Assembly (NCBI GenBank): GCA_003670575.1
Contig: QWRD01000001.1
Coordinates: forward strand, 62,001-126,000
DNA: 64,000 bases
Source of the DNA: Chloroflexota bacterium
Lineage (GTDB): Bacteria; Chloroflexota; Dehalococcoidia; UBA2979
Reading direction: 5' to 3'
Positions 21,045 to 22,693 of the stretch are shown here, one piece after another. The notes beneath the pieces are model-generated. The model was given only the letters and a program-made list of their open reading frames with translations. It was not told the DNA's origin and ran no database searches. The first letter of the stretch is position 1; every line of letters starts with the position of its first letter. Position numbers and translations under genes: made by a program.

Positions 21045-21072
21045 TTGACACGCCAAGTCGGCTGAGTATGCT
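21045..21072 (+). promoter_or_regulatory. Promoter for riboswitch/zinc-ribbon transcript
   Basis: Consensus TTGACA (21045-21050), a 16-nt spacer and TATGCT (21067-21072). Transcription would begin near 21079, about 35 nt before the c-di-AMP aptamer. This is the best sigma-70-type promoter match seen in the window. Confidence 0.65.
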
Positions 21073-21112
21073 CTTGTTGTCACAAGCACGAATGCATTGT
21101 ATACGTGATTGT

Positions 21113-21244
21113 GGCCTGCCAAATCTCCACAATACTGTGGAGACCGGGGGAACCAATTCTTGGGGTGAACTCTCTACGGGGAGAGCGGGCTTTCCTGATC
21201 TGCCCGAATCCGACAGCTAACCCCGGCGGCAGATTGAACAGGCC
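21113..21244 (+). promoter_or_regulatory. ydaO/yuaA-class (c-di-AMP) riboswitch
   Basis: Conserved pieces occur in the right order: ACCGGGGGAACC (21143-21154), TTGGGGTGAAC (21160-21170), a variable hairpin arm, then TGCCCGAATCCGACAGCTAA (21201-21220) and CCCCGGCGGCAG. The closing stem P1 is visible: GGCCTGCCAAATCT (21113-21126) pairs with AGATTGAACAGGCC (21231-21244) in two helical blocks. This family binds cyclic di-AMP and usually turns genes off. The gene 45 nt downstream is a zinc-ribbon protein, not one of the common K+ transporter or cell-wall hydrolase targets. Confidence 0.9.
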
Positions 21245-21289
21245 CGAACCGGAGGGCATCCGGCAGACCCACCTCATAAGGGGAACGCC

Positions 21290-21502
21290 GTGAACAACAG
21301 CACACCACCGAAGCAGTGCCCGCGCTGCAATGGCCTCATGATCATTGAGGACGACTGGTACGGGAAGTTCGGCACCTGCATCGCGTGCGGTCACGTACAC
21401 GAGACTCAGGTCGCGGATCCGAAAGAGATCCTCGAGGAAGAGCGACTTGCCGCCGGCAAGCAGCGTCGTCGCCAGCCGTCCCACGGCAAGCTTCGCCTCT
21501 AG
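21290..21502 (+). CDS. Small zinc-ribbon protein under c-di-AMP riboswitch
   Basis: 70 residues, GTG start at 21290 with AAGGGGA 5 nt upstream. Two CxxC knuckles, CPRC (about residues 10-13) and CIAC (about 30-33), surround a hydrophobic MIIEDDWYGKFGT strand region. This is a rubredoxin/zinc-ribbon-like Zn site typical of small nucleic-acid-binding or regulatory proteins. The C-terminal third is charged and basic (AAGKQRRRQPSHGKLRL), consistent with RNA or DNA contact. I recognise no named family. It is the only gene between the riboswitch and a 9-bp hairpin at 21519-21543, so the riboswitch seems dedicated to it. Confidence 0.75.
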   Translation: MNNSTPPKQCPRCNGLMIIEDDWYGKFGTCIACGHVHETQVADPKEILEEERLAAGKQRRRQPSHGKLRL

Positions 21503-21518
21503 TCGCACGTAGGTGGTG

Positions 21519-21543
21519 CAGGCGGATTCTTGTGATCCGCCTG
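21519..21543 (+). terminator. Hairpin after zinc-ribbon gene
   Basis: Perfect 9-bp stem CAGGCGGAT/ATCCGCCTG with 7-nt loop, 17 nt after the stop codon. It lacks a U-tract, so it is either a weak intrinsic terminator or a 3'-stabilising stem. Confidence 0.45.
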
Positions 21544-21677: not shown

Positions 21678-21977
21678 ATGCCGTACGTCCGGTTCTCATT
21701 GATGCGTCCCATGCACGGGCAAGACGCGCACGCACGCGAGTTGATTGACAGTCTGGTTGTGTACTACCAGCAGCAGCCCGGCTTCATGTCCGGCTATCGA
21801 CTGGAGCCTGCGGACAGCGCTGGGTTCATCGGGCGGATGGGCGTCTGGGCCACCGAGGCGGACGCGAACGCCGCCGCGCAGCAAGAGCACGATCTGGCGC
21901 TGCGCTCCCGCCTGAACTTCATTGTCTCGGATCACCACGAGTACTCGTTTGAGGGCGTGGCACCGGTTCCTGTCTAG
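21678..21977 (+). CDS. ABM-like dimeric alpha/beta-barrel protein
   Basis: 99 residues from ATG 21678, with GAGGGG just upstream. The layout of an opening strand (YVRFSLMRP), a helix (HARELIDSLVVYYQQQPGFMSGYRL), a strand with GFIGRMGVWATEADANAAA, and a closing helix matches antibiotic-biosynthesis-monooxygenase-like (ABM, DUF4286/EthD-like) barrels. Such proteins range from monooxygenases to heme-degrading and regulatory proteins. No substrate can be assigned. Gene stands alone, 175 bp after the zinc-ribbon gene. Confidence 0.6.
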   Translation: MPYVRFSLMRPMHGQDAHARELIDSLVVYYQQQPGFMSGYRLEPADSAGFIGRMGVWATEADANAAAQQEHDLALRSRLNFIVSDHHEYSFEGVAPVPV

Positions 21978-22362: not shown

Positions 22363-22414
22363 GCGTGCCGCGGCTGATCACGTGCAGCAATGCACGGAGG
22401 GCAGGGAGGCCCAG

Positions 22415-22693
22415 TTGCTGATCCTGACGCGCAAGATTGAGCAAGGCATCGTCATTGACGGCCGCATCATCGTGCGAGTGTTGGCGGTGGATGGCGAGCG
22501 AGTGAAGATCGGGATCGAGTCGCCCTTGACCGTTGGTGTGCTGCGCGAGGAGCTCGTGCAGCAGGTTGCCGGCGCGAACCGTGAGGCGGCGCAGAACGGG
22601 CAGGGTGAGCAGCTCGCGCGGCGGCTGCGCTCGCTCGATGCGCCCGTCGCACGCCCCAACCGCGGAACAGACGGGACGCCGCGCGCGGGCTGA
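22415..22693 (+). CDS. csrA: Carbon storage regulator CsrA
   Basis: 92 residues starting at TTG 22415. The start is set by the canonical M-L-I-L-T-R-K opening and a GGAGG 5 nt upstream. Beta strands QGIVIDGRIIVRVLAV and VKIGIESP and the RNA-binding segment GVLREEL with its conserved Arg follow the family. CsrA dimers bind GGA motifs in mRNA leaders and block ribosomes. The C-terminal tail of about 35 residues exceeds the usual 60-70 total and is charged. In many Gram-positive-like lineages csrA sits beside flagellar genes with fliW; neither is seen here. Confidence 0.9.
   Translation: MLILTRKIEQGIVIDGRIIVRVLAVDGERVKIGIESPLTVGVLREELVQQVAGANREAAQNGQGEQLARRLRSLDAPVARPNRGTDGTPRAG

Follow-up and report, generated by a model that had tools for sequence, protein, structure and literature searches.

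A c-di-AMP riboswitch conserved ahead of the gene for a small zinc-ribbon protein in Dehalococcoidia

In Dehalococcoidia, a c-di-AMP (ydaO/yuaA) riboswitch aptamer stands directly upstream of the gene for a 70-residue zinc-ribbon protein with a near-invariant C-terminal tail, and the pairing of the two is conserved across the class, in dozens of species. The locus described here lies in a 64,000-nt stretch of DNA (the window) from a metagenome-assembled genome (MAG). c-di-AMP is a second messenger known mainly for its part in ion and osmolyte transport. Taken as a whole, the explanation that we consider probable on balance is that of a c-di-AMP-controlled zinc-ribbon effector unit with a docking tail, chromosomal and vertically inherited in Dehalococcoidia, and switched on by its ligand where a terminator exists. 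In this model c-di-AMP would bind the leader RNA and thereby set the expression of the protein, for which a zinc ribbon, a single helix and a basic, flexible tail are predicted. This tail would most likely dock on a single conserved partner by way of a linear motif (candidates are RNA polymerase, the ribosome or its rRNA, or some other highly conserved target), and the protein would act as a stoichiometric effector, giving c-di-AMP a signalling role outside the transport of ions and osmolytes.

The features of the locus are collected in Table 1. The identity of the aptamer as a member of RF00379 is secure: the covariance model gives 81.5 bits, well above its gathering threshold of 38 (over the 64-kb window this corresponds to an E value of 2e-17), the match covers the full length of the model (1-134), and the consensus pairs are all standard. 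The ydaO/yuaA aptamer that the initial annotation had recognized, with its core segments and P1 stem, is thus confirmed, and a sub-threshold score, which would have refuted it, was not obtained. Binding of the ligand itself is inferred. In relatives, the pseudoknot strands are complementary yet consist of other letters (CCUUCC/GGAAGG, CCUUUC/GAAAGG). The promoter, first described as consensus, is more exactly near-consensus, and is the sole promoter-like site on either strand between 20900 and 22000 (shuffled sequences average 0.2). A TTGACA/TATGCT counterpart is found in most leaders of the zinc-ribbon family, and many of them also have GTCACAA beside the promoter and a hairpin ahead of P1, the arms of which differ (covariation was not formally tested). 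The short hairpin that follows the aptamer occupies the site where relatives carry a terminator, and 43 nt separate the end of the aptamer from the GTG start of the zinc-ribbon ORF. The small CxxC/CxxC protein of the initial annotation corresponds to this ORF, with its four cysteines, for which zinc binding is inferred. Its proposed 3' hairpin also exists, as a perfect 9-bp stem; it lacks a U-run and so is not a classical intrinsic terminator, and a scan for intrinsic terminators lists none at 21519-21543. That the unit is monocistronic is plausible and has not been shown, the ABM-like ORF lying further along the same strand.

Table 1. Features of the riboswitch locus, in window coordinates
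Feature	Position	Strand	Basis or remark
Cobalamin riboswitch RF00174	20828-20954	-	34.4 bits; before divergent cobalamin gene cluster
Sigma70-type promoter TTGACA-16-TATGCT	21045-21072	+	10/12 consensus matches
Leader 5'-end hairpin GUCACAA...UUGUGGC, just 5' of aptamer	21079-21115	+	Recurs in relatives
c-di-AMP (ydaO/yuaA) riboswitch aptamer, RF00379	21107-21246	+	Covariance model, 81.5 bits
Aptamer pseudoknot, CCUG 21194-21197 / CAGG 21239-21242	21194-21242	+	Complementarity in sequence
Short hairpin CCGGA-GGGCA-UCCGG 3' of aptamer, without U-run	21249-21263	+	Same hairpin, with changed letters, in family
Shine-Dalgarno-like AAGGGG	21278-21283	+	Sequence
70-aa zinc-ribbon protein, GTG start; C10xxC13, C30xxC33; tail QRRRQPSHGKLRL	21290-21502	+	ORF
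Perfect 9-bp hairpin CAGGCGGAT/ATCCGCCTG after zinc-ribbon gene, no U-run	21519-21543	+	Sequence
ABM-like (dimeric alpha/beta barrel) ORF, possible partner	21678-21974	+	PF03992, E 0.017, below cut-off

The association of aptamer and zinc ribbon is secure, and rests on a comparison of 149 genomes from the same genus, family and class, in which close relatives of the protein were defined by an E value of 1e-18 or better. RF00379 is present in 76 of these genomes and the protein in 64; all 64 have an RF00379 aptamer somewhere, and 56 of them have one immediately before the zinc-ribbon gene. The exceptions, with no recognizable aptamer directly upstream, are the f20 group (5 genomes), G058, G097 and G110, from which it follows that control by the riboswitch is not obligatory. 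Upstream of the intact zinc-ribbon gene of one of these (L066, G058:C57) there is an apparent decayed aptamer core (GGTGAAT..., CCCGAACCCG, GCAGGC), a remnant read by eye only, as cmscan of this leader gives no RF00379 match. Divergent loci in named records agree with the pattern, RF00379 being directly upstream in 35 of 40, including the complete genome of the cultured Tepidiforma flava. Named records with the protein belong to Chloroflexota and are mostly labelled Dehalococcoidia (NCBI files Tepidiforma under a separate class, Tepidiformia), and in a phylum-wide scan the family is confined to Dehalococcoidia in the GTDB sense, with a clear gap in score (at least 115 bits for the family versus at most 43 for generic zinc ribbons).

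The initial annotation had regarded a zinc-ribbon protein as an unusual target for this riboswitch, and had asked whether homologues also lie behind it or the protein is merely a transposon- or phage-borne ribbon without a conserved leader. The counts above answer the first point in the affirmative, and the class-wide pairing strengthens the case for an unusual target. Collections of phages, plasmids and viral contigs yielded no relatives of the protein, and an origin in such mobile elements was rejected; the leader is conserved. In another family of the class, a c-di-AMP riboswitch (L009 1501-1911, G044:C266) precedes a different small zinc-ribbon ORF that lacks the conserved tail. Searches of the literature on ydaO with zinc ribbons and on c-di-AMP with Dehalococcoidia did not find the pairing, nor is it treated in the titles and abstracts of work on c-di-AMP riboswitches in Chloroflexi, as far as these go. 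The survey of Block et al. (2010), reportedly an early account of ydaO gene associations, was not covered, and so prior mention is not excluded; the zinc ribbon is apparently undescribed as a conserved c-di-AMP target.

The direction of control is inferred from the arrangement of aptamer and terminator. Described c-di-AMP riboswitches are OFF switches (PMC9960051, PMC6488665, PMC9337991), and by the rule of PMC9337991 an aptamer apart from its terminator indicates OFF control, and an aptamer overlapping it ON control. By analogy with these examples, c-di-AMP might lower expression of the zinc ribbon, the protein being needed when c-di-AMP is low (e.g., under K+ limitation). We regard this canonical arrangement as quite possible, if short of probable, and the absence from the window leader of any terminator that overlaps the pseudoknot strand is in its favor. 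The terminator-bearing zinc-ribbon leaders of relatives are not: in 20 of 23, the 3' strand of the pseudoknot lies inside the 5' arm of the terminator, so that the separation from which PMC9337991 infers OFF control is not met, whereas among the other c-di-AMP riboswitches of the class the strand is so placed in only 2 of 12 (Fisher p 8e-5; the relatives are not independent, some loci come from near-identical genomes, and no correction was made for phylogeny). In most leaders tested, deletion of the pseudoknot strand costs 8-12 of the approximately 20 kcal/mol of terminator stability. Because the strand is inside the terminator arm, ON control is predicted for the terminator-bearing relatives; the ligand would keep the pseudoknot strand out of the terminator and so turn the gene on. 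The window leader and most of its family have no terminator, with the short conserved hairpin in its place, and without an overlapping terminator the sign of control at the window is unresolved.

Sequestration of the Shine-Dalgarno sequence in the window leader is not convincing (z 0.3), and pairing between the pseudoknot strand and the Shine-Dalgarno region was rejected as a family-wide feature (mean z -0.36). In L038/L040, L049/L057, L087/L088 and L090/L091, the pseudoknot strand is strongly complementary to the Shine-Dalgarno region, as exemplified by ACAGACCU/AGGUCUGU in L088; judged by sequence alone, this complementarity would provide translational ON control in those genera.

The tail comprises the last 13 residues of the protein and is exact in 61 of 66 loci; the other five comprise two that begin LRRR, one with the ending GRLRL and two divergent homologues. 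All tail codons show synonymous variation, so it is the peptide, rather than the RNA, that is under selection. In the AlphaFold model (pLDDT 75), the zinc ribbon is followed by a helix at 44-55, and the tail is unstructured. A tail that is near-invariant and yet unstructured is, we infer, what would be expected of a linear motif that adopts its fold on contact with a conserved partner. No Pfam or NCBIfam family reaches its cut-off for the 70-aa protein, and the matches below threshold are to zinc ribbons only, such as the TFIIB-type ribbon PF08271 (25.1 bits, gathering cut-off 29). Weak fold and profile matches are mostly to the zinc ribbons of TFIIB, RPB9/RPC10 and topoisomerase I, and also to ZifS of Thermus, on which a literature search found no paper. 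These resemblances point mostly to nucleic-acid machinery; all are below curated cut-offs and identify no partner, and phmmer finds nothing in the PDB when queried with the last 24 residues. A presumed likeness of the tail to sigma70 region 4.2 prompted a comparison with the relatives' sigma factors, in which the best local alignments fall elsewhere in those proteins, and mimicry of region 4.2 received no support (with two RpoD proteins, shuffles reach the score of the tail in 6% and 22% of cases). An effector role for the protein between c-di-AMP and transcription or translation, as initially proposed, remains an inference, as do its partner and its effect, there being no experiment on these RNAs or proteins. 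In the fullest version, offered only as a tentative possibility, the small zinc-ribbon protein would be a dedicated effector, turned on by c-di-AMP, and its near-invariant C-terminus would bind RNA polymerase or the ribosome.

A diadenylate cyclase (DAC; PF02457) was sought because its absence from the genome would tell against the riboswitch. None is found in the window's own MAG (1.34 Mb, 67.6% complete), but the enzyme is present in both genomes of the same genus, and in 75 of the 149 relatives. The zinc-ribbon protein co-occurs strongly with it: 58 of the protein-bearing genomes have a DAC and 6 do not, and for protein-less genomes the numbers are 17 and 68 (Fisher p 7e-19, without phylogenetic correction). 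Completeness is below 90% in each of the six genomes that have the protein but no DAC. This distribution bears on the possibility that the protein is a housekeeping zinc ribbon (e.g., an accessory subunit of RNA polymerase or the ribosome) with no dedicated signalling role, its level merely responding to c-di-AMP as a general signal of osmotic state or growth. The very high conservation, the single small gene, and the retention of that gene in the f20 group without a recognizable riboswitch would all fit such a role, but the phylogenetic spread tracks c-di-AMP synthesis, and near-complete genomes of the class that lack DAC also lack the protein, which a housekeeping role does not predict. We consider it unlikely, without discounting it.

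Around the gene, an ORF related to the ABM-like one comes next at 43 of 80 related loci, flagellar FlbD/MotA genes lie within 3 kb downstream at 13-14, and a membrane pyrophosphatase gene precedes at 14. It is improbable that this downstream cluster (ABM-like protein, response regulator, flagellar motor genes) is the true target and the zinc ribbon a leader-proximal passenger, frequent as some of its members are, since the gene adjacent to the aptamer is the zinc ribbon throughout and the downstream genes vary, FlhA is found in just 22 of the 149 genomes, and riboswitch and zinc ribbon persist together in near-complete genomes without flagella. The last two observations also rule out a dependence of the zinc ribbon on flagella. 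In the window, a CsrA-like ORF (about 22410-22693, + strand) is downstream of the ABM-like ORF, and is followed by response-regulator and histidine-kinase-like ORFs. A cobalamin riboswitch beside the c-di-AMP riboswitch is also seen in relatives L034-L037, L039 and L062. The genome has a second c-di-AMP riboswitch (G000:C1:163218-163379, + strand; L002, L099; 49.3 bits) before a glycosyltransferase (PF13632) gene, and a c-di-AMP riboswitch in another family (L017) has a similar target.

If the effector model is true, the unit relays a second-messenger signal from RNA to protein, and its c-di-AMP riboswitch is of the ON type, a gene-activating form predicted within a known riboswitch class. The c-di-AMP regulon of a poorly studied class gains a conserved member that is apparently undescribed, the pairing points to an unknown arm of c-di-AMP signalling, and the protein family with its near-invariant tail is a handle on roles of c-di-AMP other than ion and osmolyte control.

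Among known proteins, the zinc ribbons of TFIIB, RPB9 and RPC10 share with the family the CxxC...CxxC ribbon and a CGYVxE-like second knuckle, from which it differs in being a stand-alone bacterial protein of 70 residues with a class-specific tail. ZifS (TTHA0897), a small zinc-finger protein of Thermus thermophilus (PDB 8yoz), is of similar size and is the best Foldseek match (probability 0.99), but the E value of 0.058 is not significant, the identity is 24%, and profile searches of the PDB miss it. Like other RF00379 riboswitches, that of the window has a full-length aptamer with all core segments and a pseudoknot, directly upstream of one gene; unlike those of known systems, it targets a zinc-ribbon protein with no known function and not a transporter, osmolyte enzyme or wall hydrolase. 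The overlap of pseudoknot strand and terminator in the relatives' leaders is of the ON type and sets them apart from the described OFF layout. In this they resemble the Na+ riboswitch (DUF1646 motif; PMC9337991), a different aptamer with a different ligand, in which aptamer nucleotides likewise form part of the terminator stem and the ligand precludes termination.
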